This document shows positions 32,804-41,182 of a DNA stretch of 64,000 nucleotides, in pieces. Under the pieces are notes generated by a model. That model made no database searches. It was not told the origin of the DNA and was given only the letters and a program-made list of their open reading frames with translations. Location of the stretch: contig SVIH01000008.1 in the NCBI GenBank assembly GCA_015069575.1, forward strand, positions 1-64,000. The letters run 5' to 3'. Each line of letters starts with the position of its first letter. Within the stretch, counting starts at the first letter, position 1. This DNA is from Clostridiales bacterium. Lineage in GTDB: Bacteria; Bacillota; Clostridia; Christensenellales; QALW01. A program made the position numbers and the translations under genes.

Positions 32804-33237
32804 TTTCGTGGATTAAAGAATATATTTTAACTATAGTTGTAATCTCTGTAATAGGTTTGATTTTAGAGTGTCTTTTAAATGAAGGTAATATAAAAAAATA
32901 TGCAATGTTTGGTGTATCTATAATTTTATGCGTAAATATGATTCAACCTTTTTTAAAAATAAATTTTGAAATAAATAAACCTGATATTAATAATAAATAT
33001 CACTACACCATTGATTATAATGATGCGGTTTCATCAACAGTAAACAGTGTTAAAGGTTTTGAGAATGCGAAGGTTAATGTTGATAGCCAAAATAACAAAA
33101 TAATAAAAATCACTATAAATCCAAATGCAGATAAACTTATAGAAAAAACAATTAGTAATACTACAAAAGAATATATAAAAACTCTTTTAAATGCTATTTA
33201 TGGTGTGGATAAAGAAAATATATTTTTTACGGAGTAA
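32800..33237 (+). CDS. spoIIIAF: Stage III sporulation protein AF
   Basis: The 145-residue protein has two N-terminal membrane segments (about 8-26, 33-48) and a soluble C-terminal domain with a ring-building-motif-like fold that can assemble rings. It overlaps AE by four bases and is two bases before AG, so all are translated as one unit. Confidence 0.93.
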   Translation: MISWIKEYILTIVVISVIGLILECLLNEGNIKKYAMFGVSIILCVNMIQPFLKINFEINKPDINNKYHYTIDYNDAVSSTVNSVKGFENAKVNVDSQNNKIIKITINPNADKLIEKTISNTTKEYIKTLLNAIYGVDKENIFFTE

Positions 33238-33239
33238 TT

Positions 33240-33776
33240 ATGAAAGAATATTTTGAAAAATTAAAAAAAAGTAAAAAAGCAAAATTGGCATTAATTTTAT
33301 TACTTTGCTCAATAATGATAATTATTTATTTTGTGCCTGAAAAAAGTACTAAAAATGAAAAAACAAACATAAATAATAATACAGCAATTGAAAAAACAAA
33401 AGAACAGCAACTTGAAGAAGTTCTTTGTAATATTAAAGGCGTTGGTAAAGTCAGTGTTATGATCACATACCAAAGCGGAAGCGAGGTTGTGTGTGCAAAT
33501 AATATAGAAACTCAAACCAATACTGTAACAGAAAAATCAGAAAACGGGGGGATAAAAGAATCAGAAACAATTATAGAAAACAAGTCGCCAGTAACAGTTG
33601 GCTCAGGTGATGGCGAAAATCCATTGGTCATTATAGAAAAAGAGCCTGAAATTAAAGGTGTGATTGTGGTCGCACAAGGTGCAGAAAACCTTAATGTAAA
33701 ATTAAATTTACAAAAAGCAGTTGAAACGGTTTTACAGGTGGACCCTTCACAAGTTGATATTTTCGCAATGAATTAA
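33240..33776 (+). CDS. spoIIIAG: Stage III sporulation protein AG
   Basis: The 178-residue protein has one membrane segment (about 14-32) and an outer ring-forming domain (about 60-178) with an insertion region. SpoIIIAG makes a large ring in the space between the two membranes. The sequence LEEVLCNIKGVGKVSVMITY is typical. Two bases separate it from spoIIIAF. Confidence 0.93.
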   Translation: MKEYFEKLKKSKKAKLALILLLCSIMIIIYFVPEKSTKNEKTNINNNTAIEKTKEQQLEEVLCNIKGVGKVSVMITYQSGSEVVCANNIETQTNTVTEKSENGGIKESETIIENKSPVTVGSGDGENPLVIIEKEPEIKGVIVVAQGAENLNVKLNLQKAVETVLQVDPSQVDIFAMN

Positions 33777-33788
33777 GGAGAGAATAAT

Positions 33789-34286
33789 ATGTTTAAAATT
33801 AGTAGAAAAGCCATAGTAATTTCAGCAATGGTAGTTTTGTTGCTTGTAACAGGACTTTTAAATTGGAAATATATTGCAAACAGTAATAATGATGGTTCTG
33901 CTGTTACAGATAATAAACAAGAACAGGATATTGAAACAGCAAGTTTTTTTTCAACTTACAAAAATGAAAGAATGGCAAACAGGGAAGAAGAAATGACATA
34001 TCTTGACAGTGTTATTGCAAACGCAAACACAGATACTGAAACCATTAACGAAGCACAACAAATGAAAATGGAGATTGTTGCAAACATGGAACTTGAAAGT
34101 ACATTAGAAGGTCTTCTTGTTGCAAAAGGCTTTGAAGATGCTATTGTTACATTTGGGTCAACATCAGTAAATGTTGTAATTAAAGATGCTGAATTAACAA
34201 GCGCAAAGGTTGCTCAGATTTTAGACGTTGTAACCACCGAAACCCAATATACCGCAAGCGAAGTTAAAGTGATTCAGGCAGAATAA
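33789..34286 (+). CDS. spoIIIAH: Stage III sporulation protein AH
   Basis: The 165-residue protein has one membrane segment (about 9-26) and an outer domain (about 60-165) that binds the forespore protein SpoIIQ (or its clostridial counterpart) in other species. AAGGAG precedes its start 12 bases after spoIIIAG. It completes the operon and is followed by a strong terminator. Confidence 0.93.
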   Translation: MFKISRKAIVISAMVVLLLVTGLLNWKYIANSNNDGSAVTDNKQEQDIETASFFSTYKNERMANREEEMTYLDSVIANANTDTETINEAQQMKMEIVANMELESTLEGLLVAKGFEDAIVTFGSTSVNVVIKDAELTSAKVAQILDVVTTETQYTASEVKVIQAE

Positions 34287-34291
34287 ATAAA

Positions 34292-34330
34292 AGCAGACAG
34301 TAAGGTGCTAACCTGACTGTCTGTTTTTTT
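34292..34330 (+). terminator. Terminator of the spoIIIA operon
   Basis: CAGACAGT (34294-34301) pairs with ACTGTCTG (34316-34323), with an inner GGT/ACC, followed by T7. Confidence 0.88.
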
Positions 34331-34331
34331 A

Positions 34332-34360
34332 TTGACAAACATGTATATAAAATATATAAT
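34332..34360 (+). promoter_or_regulatory. Perfect consensus SigA promoter of the structured RNA
   Basis: TTGACA (34332-34337), a 17-base spacer and TATAAT (34355-34360) match the consensus. The predicted start, G34367, is exactly the first base of the RNA's terminal helix. Confidence 0.9.
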
Positions 34361-34366
34361 ATTATT

Positions 34367-34577
34367 GCCAAACTAACTAAATAAGTGCAAAACGAGGGGC
34401 GTATTTTCTTTTTTTAGAAATACGCTGAATAGTTTTTCCTATAAAACAAAGAATATGTTAAAAATGCAGATTCCACGTTTTGTAGGTAAGGCGCAGTCCT
34501 TGTTTTGCATCGGTTAGTTTGGCGACTATCGGAGTCTGCGTTTTATGTGCGTTTACTTCGGTAGGCGCACTTTTTTT
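34367..34577 (+). ncRNA. Complex structured RNA / leader with long pseudoknot (class not recognised)
   Basis: The RNA starts with an 11-pair helix: GCCAAACUAAC (34367-34377) with GUUAGUUUGGC (34513-34523). Inside, UGCAAAACGAGG (34386-34397) pairs with CCUUGUUUUGCA (34498-34509), 12 pairs. A local hairpin occupies 34399-34425. CCUAUAAAAC (34438-34447) pairs with GUUUUGUAGG (34477-34486), and the loop it encloses holds AUGCAGAUUCC (34464-34474), complementary to GGAGUCUGCGU (34531-34541) outside the first helix: an 11-pair pseudoknot with wobbles. A cUUCGg-loop terminator ends it. With the gene's ribosome-binding site only 13 bases after the terminator and no other promoter, it is probably a cis-regulatory leader; an independent small RNA is also possible. 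Confidence 0.78.
34547..34577 (+). terminator. UUCG-loop intrinsic terminator before the collagen-like gene
   Basis: GTGCGTTTAC and GTAGGCGCAC form ten pairs (two G-U) around a UUCG tetraloop, followed by T7; AAGGAGG starts at 34583. Confidence 0.92.
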
Positions 34578-34599
34578 ATTTTAAGGAGGAAATATAAAA

Positions 34600-37500
34600 A
34601 TGAAAGGATTAGTGTTTAAAAGGGTGCTTGCAATAATCATAGTGTTAACACTTGTTGCAGGTATTTCGGTGGGAACAAATATTTTAGTAAATAAAACTGC
34701 TCCTGCTTCAAGCACAATAAAAAACGGATTATCCGCTTATGAACTTGCAGTTCAGTATGGATATACCGGCACTGTTCAGGAGTGGTTAGAAAGTCTGAAC
34801 GGCAAATCTGCTTACGAAATTGCAAAGGAAAACGGATACACAGGAACAGAAGCCGAGTGGACTGCTTCACTTAAAGCCACAGCAGGTAAAGACGGTGTTG
34901 GTATTAAGACTGCCGCGTTTTCCGATAAAAACGAATTGCTTATTACTTTGACCGATGATACTGTATTAAATCTTGGCGTTGTAAAAGGTGCTGATGGCAT
35001 AAACGGCGCAAATGGTACCAACGGTAAAGATGGTGCTAACGGTAAAGATGGTGTAGGTATTACTTCGGCAAACATCAATGCCGAGGGTCAACTTGTGCTG
35101 TCATTCTCTGACGGCAAAACTGTCAACCTTGATAAAGTTGTTGGTATGAATGGTACAGACGGCATCGGCATTTCTTCTACCACTATCAATGCAAATGGTG
35201 AACTTGTTATTACATATACAAATGGTCAGACCGCAAACCTTGGCGTTGTAGTTGGAGCCAAGGGTGATAAAGGTGACAAGGGCGATACAGGTGCAACAGG
35301 TGCTACCGGTGCACAGGGCGCACAAGGTCAGCAAGGTATCCAAGGCGAAAAGGGAGACAAAGGCGACAAGGGTGACAAAGGTGACACAGGAGCCACAGGT
35401 CAAGACGGTGTAAGTGTAACCAAGACCGAAATCAATAACAAGGGTGAACTTGTTATTACCCTTTCTGATAACACAATATCTAATCTTGGTTTTGTCGTTG
35501 GCGCAAAAGGCGATAAAGGTGATAAAGGTGATACTGGCGCTACTGGTCAACAAGGTGCCCAAGGTGAAAAAGGCGACAAAGGCGATAAGGGTGACCAAGG
35601 CGAACAAGGCATTCAGGGTATTCAAGGTGAACAAGGTATTAGTGTAACTGGTGCTGAAATTAATTCTAACGGTAATCTTGTTATTTCTTTCTCCAACGGT
35701 CAACGTAGTGAACTTGGTAACGTAATTGGAGCCAAGGGTGACAAAGGTGACAAGGGAGATACAGGTGCAACAGGTGCACAGGGTCAACAAGGTATCCAAG
35801 GTGAACAGGGCATCCAGGGTATTCAAGGTGACAAAGGTGACAAAGGTGACACTGGTGCCACAGGTAAAGATGGTGTAAGTGTAACCAAAACCGAAATCAA
35901 TCAGAGAGGCGAACTCATTATTACCCTTTCTGATAATACTGTATCAAATCTTGGCGTTGTAGTAGGTGCCAAGGGCGACAAAGGCGACAGAGGTGAGCAA
36001 GGCATTCAGGGTATCCAAGGTATTCAGGGTGTTCAGGGCGAAACTGGTGCCAAAGGTGACGATGGTGTCGGCATTGAGACTATTGTTATTGATAACGGCA
36101 ACCTTAAAATAACTCTTACAAATAAAACCACACTTGACCTTGGTAATATCAAGGGTGAAAAAGGTGACACTGGTGCAACGGGTGCCACTGGCGAAAAAGG
36201 CGATAAAGGCGAACAGGGCATCCAAGGTATTCAGGGTATTCAGGGTGAAACCGGTAACGGTATCGCTTCCACTACTATCAATGAACTTGGCGAACTTGTT
36301 ATCGTTTATACCGATGGTTATCAAACCAACCTTGGTAAAGTTGTAGGTGAAAAGGGCGAAACTGGTGCAACAGGTGCTACAGGTGCTACAGGTGCCCAAG
36401 GTGAGCAAGGTCTTCAAGGCGAAAAGGGAGACCAAGGTGCCAAGGGCGATAAGGGTGACCAAGGTGTAGGTGTTGAATCTATCAACATTAATGCTGATGG
36501 TGAACTTGAAATTAAATTAACAGATAGTGATAACATTATTAACCTTGGCAAAATTATCGGACCCCAAGGTGCACAAGGCATTCAAGGTATCCAGGGTGAA
36601 CAAGGTGTTCAAGGTGAACAAGGTGTGGGCGTTACGGAAGTTTCAATGGTTAATAATGAACTTGTTATTAAACTTTCAGATGGCAAAACCTTTAACCTTG
36701 GCAATATCAAAGGCGAAAAAGGTGACCAGGGTGAACAAGGTATCCAGGGTATTCAAGGTATTCAAGGTGAGCAAGGTATCAGCATCACAGAAGTAAATTT
36801 AACTGTTGAAGGCGAACTTTCTATGACCTTCTCTTCTGGACAAACTGTTCCACTTGGCAATATTAAAGGCAAAGATGGTGTTGGTATTGCAGAAGTTTAT
36901 ATTCAGGATGGCAACCTTTTTGTAAGAAAAACTAATGAAGATGTTGCTGTAAACCTTGGCAATATTAAAGGAGAAAAAGGTGACCAAGGTGAGCCTGGCG
37001 AAAAAGGTGAACAGGGTAATGATGGTATTACGCCGCAGTTTAGAATAAACCCCGTTACAAATTATTGGGAAGTTTCTTCCGATAATGGCGTAACCTGGGT
37101 TCCTACTGATACAAAAGCAACAGGTGCAGAGGGTCGTGGTATTTTAAGAACAGAATTTTCAGGAACAAACTTTATTGTTTATTATACCGATGGCACTTCC
37201 GAAACACACGATTTGAGTGATATGATTAGTGATCCTAATGATAAAGAAATTTTAGTATATAGTTTACTTGAAGATGGTACATACGGTGTAATGGCAGGTG
37301 GTATGGCAAAATATGAAGCAGTTATTGAAATTCCTGCTATCCATAAAGGTATTGCAGTTACGCAAATTTTACCACATGGATTTAAAGATTTAACAACACT
37401 GCAAAAGATAAAAATGCCAAACACAGTTACAATTATTGGTAACAATGCATTTCAAAATTGTATAAGTTTAAATGATGTTGTTTTTCCGTATAAAATTAAG

Positions 37501-38421
37501 GAAATCAACCAATATGCATTTGAAGGTTGTGTTTTTTTAAATAGTGAAATTGTAATCCCCGAAACAACAAATTTAATCGGAAAGTATGCATTTTATGAAA
37601 CGAGAGTAACGTCAGTTACGTTAGCAGATACGGAAGGATGGACTACCGATAAAATGTACTATAGAGTTCCACCCGTTGGATGGGATCCATCTAGTATGAC
37701 TATAAATGCTGGGAATAATAGTGGAAGCACAACTAATTTTAATATATCTGGAAAAAAGGTTGATTTGTCTTCTCCTAAAAATGTGGCTACGTTGTTGACA
37801 CAAAGAACATATGTGTATAACAAAGGCCAATATGAAACTGTTTATACATATTTTGACGCGTATAAAGTAGATTGGTATAATGAAACCGCAGTTGAAATCC
37901 CTGATAATGCAATATATACTCTTGGACTTGAATATACCTTGCTTTCAGATGATACCTATGCAGTTTCTGTTGGTGCCGCGAGTGATAAAGATATTATTAT
38001 TCCTTACGAATATAATGGAAAAAAAGTAACTCAAATTAGTGAAGATGGATTTAAAGGTGTTGAAAATATTAATACAGTTGTTATTCCATCAAGCGTCACA
38101 AAAATTGGTGCAAATGCATTTTATAATTCGGGTGTAACAGAAGTTTATTTAAGCAACATTGAAAAATGGTCAACCAGTATACCATTTATGTACAGCGAGA
38201 GTTATGAATATTTAGACGGCGGTTATAATCCTTTTAATGGGCAGCCAACATATACAAGTGGATCTGTGAAATATGGATGCGATATTAATGATCCTAAAAA
38301 CGTTGCTGAAGCATTAAAAGGAGAAATGACTTTTGAATATAGTGTGCCTACATCAAGAACGTCTTCTATAAAAAAAAGTACAACATTTATTTGGTATGAT
38401 AAGGAATGGACTAAATCATAA
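34600..38421 (+). CDS. Giant collagen-like/LRR surface protein
   Basis: The 1273-residue protein starts with a signal or membrane segment (about 6-29), then two SAYE-x-A...GYTGT...EW repeats (about 45-90). Residues about 95-830 alternate collagen-type Gly-X-Y tracts (GDKGDKGD, GATGATGAQG, GIQGIQGEQG) with about 12-13 copies of a 31-residue beta module (pattern G-V-x-I...GELVITLSDG...NLGxVxG). The C-terminal third holds two groups of BspA-type leucine-rich repeats (IPAIHKG to TLADTEGW; IPYEYNGKKV to LSNIEKW). There is no LPxTG-like signal at the C-terminus, so anchoring is unclear. The protein should be exported and form trimeric stalks with LRR heads. The ribosome-binding site AAGGAGG directly follows the structured RNA and its terminator. 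Confidence 0.86.
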   Translation: MKGLVFKRVLAIIIVLTLVAGISVGTNILVNKTAPASSTIKNGLSAYELAVQYGYTGTVQEWLESLNGKSAYEIAKENGYTGTEAEWTASLKATAGKDGVGIKTAAFSDKNELLITLTDDTVLNLGVVKGADGINGANGTNGKDGANGKDGVGITSANINAEGQLVLSFSDGKTVNLDKVVGMNGTDGIGISSTTINANGELVITYTNGQTANLGVVVGAKGDKGDKGDTGATGATGAQGAQGQQGIQGEKGDKGDKGDKGDTGATGQDGVSVTKTEINNKGELVITLSDNTISNLGFVVGAKGDKGDKGDTGATGQQGAQGEKGDKGDKGDQGEQGIQGIQGEQGISVTGAEINSNGNLVISFSNGQRSELGNVIGAKGDKGDKGDTGATGAQGQQGIQGEQGIQGIQGDKGDKGDTGATGKDGVSVTKTEINQRGELIITLSDNTVSNLGVVVGAKGDKGDRGEQGIQGIQGIQGVQGETGAKGDDGVGIETIVIDNGNLKITLTNKTTLDLGNIKGEKGDTGATGATGEKGDKGEQGIQGIQGIQGETGNGIASTTINELGELVIVYTDGYQTNLGKVVGEKGETGATGATGATGAQGEQGLQGEKGDQGAKGDKGDQGVGVESININADGELEIKLTDSDNIINLGKIIGPQGAQGIQGIQGEQGVQGEQGVGVTEVSMVNNELVIKLSDGKTFNLGNIKGEKGDQGEQGIQGIQGIQGEQGISITEVNLTVEGELSMTFSSGQTVPLGNIKGKDGVGIAEVYIQDGNLFVRKTNEDVAVNLGNIKGEKGDQGEPGEKGEQGNDGITPQFRINPVTNYWEVSSDNGVTWVPTDTKATGAEGRGILRTEFSGTNFIVYYTDGTSETHDLSDMISDPNDKEILVYSLLEDGTYGVMAGGMAKYEAVIEIPAIHKGIAVTQILPHGFKDLTTLQKIKMPNTVTIIGNNAFQNCISLNDVVFPYKIKEINQYAFEGCVFLNSEIVIPETTNLIGKYAFYETRVTSVTLADTEGWTTDKMYYRVPPVGWDPSSMTINAGNNSGSTTNFNISGKKVDLSSPKNVATLLTQRTYVYNKGQYETVYTYFDAYKVDWYNETAVEIPDNAIYTLGLEYTLLSDDTYAVSVGAASDKDIIIPYEYNGKKVTQISEDGFKGVENINTVVIPSSVTKIGANAFYNSGVTEVYLSNIEKWSTSIPFMYSESYEYLDGGYNPFNGQPTYTSGSVKYGCDINDPKNVAEALKGEMTFEYSVPTSRTSSIKKSTTFIWYDKEWTKS

Positions 38422-38435
38422 AATAAACACAAACA

Positions 38436-38462
38436 AAAGGCAGCCAATGGCTGCCCTTTATA
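38436..38462 (+). terminator. Terminator of the collagen-like gene
   Basis: AAAGGCAGCC / GGCTGCC-CTTT form a G-C-rich stem, 14 bases after the stop codon. Confidence 0.78.
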
Positions 38463-38473
38463 TATCATAAAAA

Positions 38474-38506
38474 AACAAAAAAAGCTGTTACAAAAGTAAC
38501 AGCTTT
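38474..38506 (-). terminator. Terminator of rpmB
   Basis: AAAGCTGTTAC / GTAACAGCTTT with a four-base loop; on the minus strand the stem is followed by a T-run. Confidence 0.85.
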
Positions 38507-38523
38507 AATTTGTGCAAATTAAA

Positions 38524-38715
38524 TTATAATGCTCTTGTTACCTTGCCGGAACGAAGGCAACGTGTGCAAACACAAATCTGCTTGGGGGAGCCATCAACAA
38601 TAGCTCTAACCTTCTGAACATTGGGAGCCCAATATGTTCTTGTACGACGGTTAGAATGGCTAACCTGATTACCTGACATTACGCCCTTTTGACAAATTTC
38701 ACAATACTTTGCCAT
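38524..38715 (-). CDS. rpmB: 50S ribosomal protein L28
   Basis: The start is ATG 38715 after AAGGAGGTGG; three extra in-frame residues are open upstream. The 63-residue protein has the L28 pattern MAKYCEICQKGVMSGNQVSH with two Cys pairs (CEIC, CTRC), the zinc-binding form. It is in the large ribosomal subunit. A tRNA-Arg gene lies 52 bases upstream on the same strand, possibly co-transcribed. Confidence 0.96.
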   Translation of the reverse strand: MAKYCEICQKGVMSGNQVSHSNRRTRTYWAPNVQKVRAIVDGSPKQICVCTRCLRSGKVTRAL

Positions 38716-38766
38716 AAGTGCCACCTCCTTATACGGATGATAAAAATTTTTTTGAGCGTTGCTCTT

Positions 38767-38843
38767 TGGTGTGCGTGGAGGGACTCGAACCCCCGACCTA
38801 CTGGTTCGTAGCCAGTCACTCTATCCAGCTGAGCTACACACAC
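38767..38843 (-). tRNA. tRNA-Arg (anticodon ACG)
   Basis: On the minus strand a 77-nt tRNA folds with a 7-pair acceptor stem (GTGTGTG/CACGCAC), D-arm AGCTCAGCTGGATAGAG, anticodon arm CTGGCTACGAACCAG with anticodon ACG, T-arm GGGGGTTCGAGTCCC, and the discriminator A followed by an encoded CCA (38767-38769). The A of ACG would be modified to inosine to read CGN codons. Confidence 0.95.
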
Positions 38844-38864
38844 GTATATCTGAGCAACGGTGAT

Positions 38865-38893
38865 AGTATATAATAACCTTTTAAATTTGTCAA
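38865..38893 (-). promoter_or_regulatory. SigA promoter of tRNA-Arg (and probably rpmB)
   Basis: On the minus strand TTGACA (38888-38893) and TATACT (38865-38870) are 17 bases apart, about 22 bases before the tRNA. No separate promoter is evident before rpmB. Confidence 0.82.
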
Positions 38894-39039
38894 ACATTTT
38901 TTTGTTAAATTTTTGTTTATTTTATTTTGTGTTTGTGATAAAATATTTTTAAAGATAAACATTTTTATCATTTTGCTATCACAATTATAGGGTACAATAA
39001 TATTAAATAATAAACCTTTTATATGAAAGGACGAAAAAT

Positions 39040-39720
39040 ATGGCAAGAGTTTTAATTGTTGATGATGAAGAAAATATCCGCATTGGTTTAAGGGAGTATG
39101 CAGAGTTTGAAGGGCATATAGTTACCGAAGCTGTTGACGGTATGGATGCAGTTAATAAGTGCAAAAATACTGATTTTGATGTTATTATTATGGATATAAT
39201 GATGCCACGCCTTGATGGCTTTTCTGCATGCAAGGAAATTAGAAAAATTAAAGATATTCCTGTTTTGATGCTTTCAGCAAGGGGCGAAGAATACGATAAA
39301 CTATTTGGCTTTGAGCTTGGCATTGACGATTACGTTGTTAAGCCTTTTTCACCTAAAGAAGTTATGGCAAGAATAAACGTAATTGTTTCAAGAAGGCAGA
39401 ATGCCCAAAAGGAAAGTGAAAATAAGCATATAATCATTAAGGGGATTGATATTGACGCTTCAGCCCGTAAGGTTTATATTGACGGTAAAAGGGTTGAGCT
39501 TACGCCAAAAGAATATGATCTTCTTACATTTATGATTAAAAACAAGAATATTGCGTTATCCCGCAATCAACTTTTATCAGAAGTATGGGGATATGAATTC
39601 TTTGGTGATGACAGAACTGTTGATACACATATTAAGATGTTGCGCAACAGTATTGAACCATATCGTGATTTGATTTCTACTGTGCGAGGGGTAGGTTACA
39701 TATTTGAAACAGAAGAATAA
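39040..39720 (+). CDS. OmpR/PhoB-family response regulator
   Basis: The 226-residue protein has a receiver domain with the acidic pair DDE (8-10), phospho-acceptor Asp52 (IMDIMMPRLDG) and Lys in VVKPFSP, and a winged-helix domain (about 130-226, GYEFFGDDRTVDTHIKMLRN). It overlaps the sensor kinase gene by 17 bases. It is similar in plan to the earlier regulator (5000-5689) but distinct in sequence. Targets are unknown; a spore-protein gene follows the kinase. Confidence 0.93.
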   Translation: MARVLIVDDEENIRIGLREYAEFEGHIVTEAVDGMDAVNKCKNTDFDVIIMDIMMPRLDGFSACKEIRKIKDIPVLMLSARGEEYDKLFGFELGIDDYVVKPFSPKEVMARINVIVSRRQNAQKESENKHIIIKGIDIDASARKVYIDGKRVELTPKEYDLLTFMIKNKNIALSRNQLLSEVWGYEFFGDDRTVDTHIKMLRNSIEPYRDLISTVRGVGYIFETEE

Positions 39721-41182
39721 ACATGGCGTAAAACTGAAGATTTGGGAATATTTTTGTATATTTGCAATTGTTTTATTGGTTATTATTTGGTTGTTGCAAA
39801 TTGTTTTTCTTCAGTATTATTATATCGGTGCAATGGCGCGTGAAACAATTAATAATGCAAGGGAAGTTGTTTCATTATATAAAAAAAATCAACTTGATGA
39901 TAAAATAATATATGAAAAAGCCCACAAAAACAATATGGTTATTGTTATAACCAATAAAGATGGCTATGTATTATCTGCATATGATGATATGGGTATTATT
40001 GATAATCAGCGTATCAATTCTATAAATGATTATGGGAAAATATTAGGTAATGTGCACGATAAAATTTTAGATAGTAAAACAAAAGAAATTTATTATCGTG
40101 TTGAAAATGAAAAATCACAGGACCGTATAATTTTTTATGGCGCATATGCACAAAATAATAATGAAGAAGCATATATTTTTGTTTTATCTCAATTACAACC
40201 AATTGATTCTGTAATTGCGGTTATACAAAAACAATTTGTTCTAATAACTTTAATTGCGCTTTTAATGGCAGCGGTAATAGCATATGTTATTGCAAGAAGG
40301 TTTTCTAAACCTGTTGAAAAATTAACTAATTCTGCAAGAGAATTGGCTTTAGGTAATCTTAATGCTGATTTTAATTGCAAAGAGGCATTTTTTGAAATAT
40401 CCGATCTTTCAAAAGCACTTAATTATGCATCGTCAGAAATAAAAAAAGCGGCTGATTTCAGGCGTGAACTTATGGCAAATGTTTCTCACGATTTGCGTAC
40501 ACCGCTTACAATGATAAAAATGTATGCAGAAATGATTCGTGATATTTCAGGTGATAATAAAGAAAAGCGTGATAAGAATTTAAAGATTATTATTGATGAA
40601 ACAGACAGACTATCGTTGCTTGTTAATGATATTCTTGAATTATCTAAAATTGAAAATGCTGAACTTGATTTTGATGTTAAAGTTTTTGATATTTGCAAAA
40701 CCATAACAAGGGTGCTTGAAAAATTTTCTGTTATGGTTAATAAAGGATACTCGTTTAATCTTGAAGCACCTCAAAATGTTTATGTTGTAGGTGATGAAGC
40801 GCGTATCGAACAGGTTATTTATAATCTTTTAAGTAATGCGATACACTATACAGGTGAGGATTTAAAGGTAAATATTCATATTACCAAAAAATTTGATTTT
40901 GCTAAAATCGAGATTATTGATACCGGTGAAGGAATTCCCCAAGAAGAACTTTCAAATATTTGGGAACGCTATTATAGAACAAAAAATCATATTAGATCTC
41001 AAATTGGTACAGGTCTTGGATTATCAATTGTTAAAAATATTTTGATTGCGCATAATGCTGATTTTGGCATAGAAAGCACATTAGGCGTCGGATCGAATTT
41101 TTGGTTTGAATTAAAATTGCCTGAAAATTCCAATAATAAAACATTAAGACTTGCAGATAATAATATTGCAAAGGATGAATGA
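39704..41182 (+). CDS. Membrane sensor histidine kinase (TTG start)
   Basis: A TTG start at 39704 is supported by GAGGGGTAGG eight bases upstream; the next in-frame ATG would remove the first membrane helix. The 492-residue protein has two membrane segments (about 15-38, 178-200), an outer sensing domain, a HAMP linker, a HisKA helix with His262 (NVSHDLRTPLTMI), and the HATPase motifs NLLSNAIHY, DTGEGI and GTGLGLSIVK. It pairs with the overlapping response regulator. The signal is unknown. Confidence 0.92.
   Translation: MKQKNKHGVKLKIWEYFCIFAIVLLVIIWLLQIVFLQYYYIGAMARETINNAREVVSLYKKNQLDDKIIYEKAHKNNMVIVITNKDGYVLSAYDDMGIIDNQRINSINDYGKILGNVHDKILDSKTKEIYYRVENEKSQDRIIFYGAYAQNNNEEAYIFVLSQLQPIDSVIAVIQKQFVLITLIALLMAAVIAYVIARRFSKPVEKLTNSARELALGNLNADFNCKEAFFEISDLSKALNYASSEIKKAADFRRELMANVSHDLRTPLTMIKMYAEMIRDISGDNKEKRDKNLKIIIDETDRLSLLVNDILELSKIENAELDFDVKVFDICKTITRVLEKFSVMVNKGYSFNLEAPQNVYVVGDEARIEQVIYNLLSNAIHYTGEDLKVNIHITKKFDFAKIEIIDTGEGIPQEELSNIWERYYRTKNHIRSQIGTGLGLSIVKNILIAHNADFGIESTLGVGSNFWFELKLPENSNNKTLRLADNNIAKDE

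Follow-up and report, generated by a model that had tools for sequence, protein, structure and literature searches.

A pseudoknotted leader RNA family with a predicted switchable terminator ahead of diverse genes in gut Clostridia

Pseudoknots serve as aptamers in riboswitches of the preQ1-II and SAM-II types, and in Clostridia the c-di-GMP riboswitches occur in many copies per genome and control lipoproteins and a variety of surface proteins. Autonomous promoter-gene-terminator insertions are known as gene cassettes and as phage morons. The raiA motif RNA has been studied as a free-standing RNA (PMC11706538), and in type III toxin-antitoxin leaders, as in the phage-encoded AbiF RNA system (PMC12373285), the order is promoter, structured RNA, terminator and gene.

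The window, meaning the whole stretch of 64,000 nucleotides that was analysed, lies on contig C19 of a genome of 1.59 Mb (22 contigs, 95.6% complete), and its bases 34367-34578 are one copy of a real, widespread RNA family that was found neither in Rfam 15 nor in the literature searched. Transcription-terminating riboswitches of the preQ1-II and SAM-II types are alike in the 5' leader position, the pseudoknot, the exclusive antiterminator and terminator, the nearby ribosome-binding site and the multi-copy regulon; the window family differs from them in having no Rfam match and clients without a common pathway, and in that its pseudoknot draws its 5' strand from the loop of a distal hairpin and is itself the competitor of the antiterminator. 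It resembles raiA as a pseudoknotted Clostridia RNA of ~200 nt, but has no match to it in Rfam and is joined to diverse genes by a putative switchable terminator. With the c-di-GMP riboswitches it has in common the many copies per genome and the surface-protein and lipoprotein clients, whereas it matches neither class in Rfam and differs in architecture and conserved residues. The toxin-antitoxin and AbiF systems differ too, since the window RNA has no repeat array and precedes many unrelated families rather than one toxin family; a type III toxin-antitoxin identity was rejected for a single pseudoknotted unit with no tandem antitoxin repeats and with unrelated clients. Gene cassettes and morons are similar as autonomous units placed between housekeeping genes or next to phage genes, but the units described here carry a shared regulatory RNA, and a recombination site was not identified.

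The promoter of the window copy begins 1-2 bases past the T-run of the spoIIIAH terminator, which ends the spoIIIA operon. The features of the locus are as follows.

34332-34360, + strand: sigma-A promoter, TTGACA-17-TATAAT, 12 of 12 consensus matches
34367-34578, + strand: structured leader RNA, P1 through terminator, 212 bases
34367-34378 with 34512-34523, + strand: P1, 12 pairs, its first base the predicted transcription start
34386-34397 with 34498-34509, + strand: P2, 12 pairs, also in the MFE folds of many relatives
34399-34425, + strand: P3 hairpin with a U-rich loop
34438-34447 with 34477-34486, + strand: P4, 10 pairs
34451-34473, + strand: P5 hairpin, weak in this copy (-2.0 kcal/mol)
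34461-34474 with 34531-34544, + strand: pseudoknot, 14 unbroken pairs
34526-34535 with 34555-34564, + strand: antiterminator, 10 pairs, which excludes pseudoknot and terminator
34547-34570, + strand: intrinsic terminator hairpin, 10 pairs, UUCG loop, followed by T7
34583-34589, + strand: Shine-Dalgarno sequence AAGGAGG of the downstream gene
34600-38421, + strand: gene under predicted control, with its ATG at 34600, encoding 1273 aa with an N-terminal hydrophobic anchor, collagen repeats (PF01391) and BspA-type LRR_5 (PF13306)
38439-38455, + strand: terminator-like hairpin 3' of the collagen/LRR gene

A sequence-only reading of this DNA had proposed a perfect SigA promoter with its start on the first base of the terminal helix, and the full consensus together with the 6 nt between the -10 box and G34367, the first base of P1, bears this out. 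The nested 12-pair helix, hairpin and 10-pair helix that it described were all found as P2, P3 and P4, as was the UUCG-loop terminator ahead of AAGGAGG; the terminal helix and the pseudoknot with a strand beyond it are also present, at 12 pairs and 14 unbroken pairs rather than the 11 given for each. The fold energy of the window RNA is -80.4 kcal/mol against -46.8 +/- 4.1 in dinucleotide shuffles (z = -8.1), and the core folds of all 60 sampled relatives have z of -4.8 to -12.5 (median -8.3), so that the long-range complementarity does exceed chance, as had been claimed. Overall the observation was correct and understated. It had overlooked the antiterminator and the weak hairpin P5, and likewise the existence of homologues and the nature of the complete unit as an insertion.

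The 3' strand of P5 is also the 5' strand of the pseudoknot, and the two are mutually exclusive. P5 is stronger in relatives (GAATTTG...CAAATTC) and strong in most of them. The 3' strand of the pseudoknot, at 34531-34544, in turn has GGAGU in common with the antiterminator. In a compact subtype (L252-L305) P3 is absent and P5 has a U-rich 5' strand that is almost a repeat of the 3' strand of the pseudoknot, as though these two strands exchanged for one partner. The idea that the A-run of the pseudoknot and the U-rich junction form a U.A-U triple helix was set aside, because compact members pair the same U-tract within P5.

Comparison of 225 non-redundant copies, from a total of ~265, upheld the fold, the start at P1, the pseudoknot and the terminator. 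The evidence is all computational and mostly from MAGs; covariation was judged by shuffles and slid registers, not by R-scape, with statistics that ignore kinship, and on that footing P1, pseudoknot and terminator covary, contrary to the lack of covariation that would have refuted the fold. Among the 175 relatives with a recognisable -10 box, this box lies 6-7 nt ahead of P1 in 162 and carries the TG of an extended -10 in 142, and the fixed spacing indicates that the RNA starts at P1. In P1, 98.7% of cells are paired, a percentage biased upward because the register was picked by best pairing, although promoter spacing fixes that register independently; double-changed cells number 424, against 94 +/- 8 when shuffled. 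For the pseudoknot, 94.9% of cells are paired compared with at most 57% in slid registers, with 51 double-changed cells against 12.6 +/- 3 shuffled. When the copies were divided for duplex-energy tests into 167 canonical and 58 divergent ones, the pseudoknot duplex was better than that of shuffled tails by more than 4 kcal/mol in 165 and 55 of them, respectively, with the sequence altered on both strands in divergent copies (e.g., L077, L108, L265, L279, L299). The pseudoknot strands are the most conserved sequence of the RNA, though the surrounding arms differ. The terminator is 98.5% paired, with compensatory changes in 9 of its 10 pairs.

A further pairing competes with both of these elements. 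Ten base pairs are possible between the strand CTATCGGAGT (34526-34535) and ACTTCGGTAG (34555-34564), the latter comprising the terminator loop plus parts of both terminator arms. When scored on an alignment fitted to the terminator only, this antiterminator is paired in 95.1% of 869 cells, compared with at most 57.4% in slid registers; its double-changed cells number 38 against 11.3 +/- 2.7 shuffled, and columns 13-58 and 14-57 vary among AU, UA, GC, UG and GU. In 159 of 223 copies the MFE fold of the free tail contains at least 6 antiterminator pairs, a preference seen in 11 of 669 tails with the first 20 nt shuffled. In the remaining copies, ~29%, the antiterminator is not the free-tail optimum, and judged by duplex energy an antiterminator is not clear in 15 of the 58 divergent copies. 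For the window copy, the free tail folded as antiterminator has -17.2 kcal/mol, the terminator alone -12.6 kcal/mol and the pseudoknot duplex -19.6 kcal/mol.

The homolog search that had been suggested found many relatives. Searches by blastn gave matches in 7 of 61 genomes, the source genome counted, and these relatives share the anatomy of the window copy but not the sequences of its arms. The 65 conserved bases at the 3' end were made into a covariance model (R1, whose E-values are rough), which matches the window at 34515-34579 with 92.7 bits. Within the order 100 of 396 genomes have R1 matches and within the class 80 of 391, with up to 12 copies per genome, and single-copy genomes also occur. 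No R1 match was obtained in ~380 genomes sampled from the rest of the phylum, outside the class, which is a good specificity control for the model and also rules out a wide taxonomic spread. The source genome has 3 clear R1 copies. Two copies besides the one in the window lie at G000:C6:707-772 (- strand) and G000:C11:76895-76958 (- strand), and the genes behind these two encode an SH3-like exported protein and a small lipoprotein, as named by eye. A pattern scan of named genomes gave at least 120 loci, the listed ones all from Clostridia-type or Bacillota records and nearly all MAGs; Pumilibacter intestinalis CLA-AA-M10 and Lachnospiraceae bacterium MD329 are carriers among the matches listed, both in records without a MAG label. 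Tandem RNA copies with no full gene between them were seen at L095 (G001:C37), L077 and L308 (G367:C8 and C3), L280 (G642:C80), L307 (G562:C22) and L108; at L280 the first copy is followed by just a Shine-Dalgarno sequence and an 8-codon ORF before the next promoter.

Infernal searches of the window and 40 loci against Rfam 15 (4227 families, including riboswitches, T-box, EAR, 6S, others and raiA, which the sequence-only reading had named as one to check) gave no match for this RNA at the gathering threshold, the matches in those loci being limited to tRNA, RNase P and, at another place on L295, an unrelated SAM riboswitch, and a search of two copies at permissive E-values gave no family match either. 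A known Rfam family, which would have ended the claim of novelty, was therefore rejected as the identity of this RNA. No description of it was found in topic searches of open-access literature, nor by term search in two structured-RNA surveys (PMC11109978, PMC8632094).

The genes behind the RNA are placed with regularity and are of many kinds. A Shine-Dalgarno sequence with an ORF of at least 35 aa starting no more than 45 nt past the terminator is found behind 143 of 216 non-redundant copies, compared with 104 of 930 control positions; the median terminator-to-gene distance is 16 nt, and roughly one copy in three lacks such an ORF in this interval. The encoded proteins have no common family, 137 of them matching 70 Pfam families, led by BspA-type LRR (LRR_5, 16), zinc ribbons (8), dockerin (3), EcoRI-type methylase (2), AMP-binding (2) and collagen (2). 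A lipobox was detected in 48 of 114 downstream proteins of at least 100 aa (42%) and in 4 of 219 control ORFs of the same loci (1.8%; p = 1e-21), and an N-terminal hydrophobic segment in 69% against 19% of controls, by crude predictors and with controls from a crude ORF caller. The suggested control of a surface protein stands insofar as exported proteins and lipoproteins are strongly over-represented, but not as anything specific to collagen-like proteins, since the RNA precedes very many unrelated genes. An obligate link with one gene family was likewise rejected: only 2 of the 29 EcoRI-type methylase loci in the order (3 including a weak one) carry the RNA, which indicates that RNA and gene are modular. 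A recurring 77-aa protein family (MKKKxTNEEVGE...ELYQRKF) was observed behind the RNA at L077:619-849, L075, L107 and L226.

These findings make it probable that the gene behind the RNA has it as a 5' leader, which would act in cis as a riboswitch-like transcription-attenuation switch. Constitutive transcription would begin at the first base of P1, and P1-P4 would fold and expose the P4/P5 loop. In the OFF state the strand directly after P1 (GGAGUCUGCGUUUU) would pair with that loop to form the pseudoknot and sequester GGAGU, so that no antiterminator could form, the terminator would fold and transcription would stop. In the ON state, with the loop strand held in P5 or bound by some factor, GGAGUCUGCGUUUU would be left free, and CUAUCGGAGU could pair with ACUUCGGUAG of the terminator and let polymerase continue into the gene. 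P5 would thus block the pseudoknot, the pseudoknot the antiterminator, and the antiterminator the terminator, and this chain of exclusive helices has the logic of a riboswitch expression platform. We infer that the RNA switches between these two states in the cell and that some signal, whether small molecule, ion or protein, makes the choice. As in riboswitches, a conserved structured leader occupies the 5' UTR of a gene and, by sequence and energy only, contains an expression platform of mutually exclusive structures. The clients, however, are tied to no one metabolite or pathway, their sole bias being toward exported proteins, which is unusual for a metabolite riboswitch. The leader would operate in the manner of such a platform, yet with clients that share no pathway it is at most a candidate riboswitch. 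Counting against the switch as a whole are the copies with no antiterminator optimum or no nearby ORF, the lack of a common pathway among clients and the weak P5 of the window copy.

Long surface-protein genes are typical clients of processive antitermination, and a LoaP/NusG-like or other RNA-binding regulator, rather than a small molecule, could in principle read the leader. Targets without shared metabolism, among them long surface-protein genes, would fit such protein-dependent antitermination, yet it appears unlikely, as the majority of targets are single genes of short length, none of the antitermination leaders known to Rfam (e.g., EAR) gives a match, and a complete terminator/antiterminator pair needs no processive factor. 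The sequence-only reading had offered two outcomes, cis-control by read-through or a stand-alone RNA. If the latter, the terminated transcript of ~210 nt would be the product and the gene behind it incidental or expressed by leakage, for which the strong promoter at P1, the stable fold, the RNA's own terminator and the tandem copies without a full gene between (G001:C37, G367:C8, G367:C3, G642:C80) could be cited. A purely stand-alone form leaves unexplained the Shine-Dalgarno sequence and ORF at a fixed short distance, the conserved antiterminator and the biased targets, and is improbable; gene placement behind 143 of 216 copies and the conserved antiterminator favour cis-control by read-through. 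Terminated RNAs or a dedicated small RNA might also act in trans: by invading another copy at its P5 loop or free tail they would set its read-through and so couple the cassettes of a genome. Pseudoknot strands that are near-identical in many copies, and most conserved although the arms differ, would agree with such an exchange, as would the presence of up to 12 copies per genome; single-copy genomes occur, however, and intramolecular pairing should outcompete pairing in trans, so there is little probability of this either.

The locus of the window is also an insertion, one further feature being:

34332-38470, + strand: whole promoter-RNA-gene-terminator unit, absent from congener G001

This 4.1-kb unit lies between spoIIIAH and rpmB. 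The corresponding locus of the congener (L313) aligns to 33176-34331 and 38471-39837 with just ~30 bp between, which implies that promoter, RNA, gene and terminator came or went together; as with mobile cassettes, presence or absence at this one site is that of a unit. The only usable empty site is ~79% identical, too divergent for a target duplication to show. A second genus of the family has an RNA tail and gene with 79% identity to the window across 795 bp, set in unrelated flanks. Where other homologous units were compared in pairs, the alignment began near the promoter and rarely went past the stop codon. The RNA was sought on plasmids, with none found, and it occurs also on one phage record and on IMG/VR contigs. 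The RNA module appears to travel with accessory genes. In the human-faeces phage record (L319, MT835503.1:319-1723) the RNA precedes a DUF262/HNH-like gene and an EcoRI-type methylase; on an IMG/VR contig (L248:2854-4685) it stands beside apparent terminase genes. Both placements are moron-like, with the genes named by eye. tRNA genes upstream of the RNA number 34, or 0.206 per kb compared with 0.014 per kb downstream, and are thus more than 10 times denser on the upstream side; in ~30 of 265 loci (e.g., L059, L084, L055, L097, L206) they precede the R1 match by 246-622 nt and are usually on its strand.

The insertion, the homologous units in unrelated flanks and the tRNA genes enriched upstream could suggest that the structure serves as DNA, marking where a mobile cassette recombines or integrates. 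This is very improbable, since RNA is the only level at which the promoter spacing, the G-U pairs, the antiterminator and the terminator are meaningful. In pairs of homologous units, moreover, the similarity does not go on past the stop codon into any conserved 3' element, and no linked recombinase was found. Translation-coupled attenuation by a leader peptide, for which a terminator/antiterminator pair before a gene is the classic arrangement, is scarcely credible and was rejected, since a Shine-Dalgarno sequence, start and 4-codon ORF occur in just 25 of 225 cores, and the one conserved ATG (AAAAATGC) reads ACG in about a fifth, with C there in 36 of 178 copies.

For the favoured cis-acting switch, promoter, RNA and gene would form a portable unit, placed ahead of many accessory, mostly exported, proteins. 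A bolder and more tentative proposal, possible though on balance doubtful, is that promoter and pseudoknot-gated terminator make up a reusable expression header carried with unrelated, horizontally moving genes (lipoproteins, LRR/collagen surface proteins, methyltransferases, phage morons), which would put dispersed accessory genes of gut Clostridia under one RNA-sensed signal.

In summary, Rfam misses a family present in roughly one fifth to one quarter of the sampled genomes of its class and order, at up to 12 copies each, in which both proposed switching states are legible from compensatory changes. The signal is directly testable because at least two carriers, the Pumilibacter and Lachnospiraceae strains named above, are in records without a MAG label. 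The predicted regulon that it defines consists largely of exported proteins, in gut bacteria of which few have been cultured. If the regulatory RNA does move together with accessory genes, this would be an unusual route to shared control of newly acquired genes.
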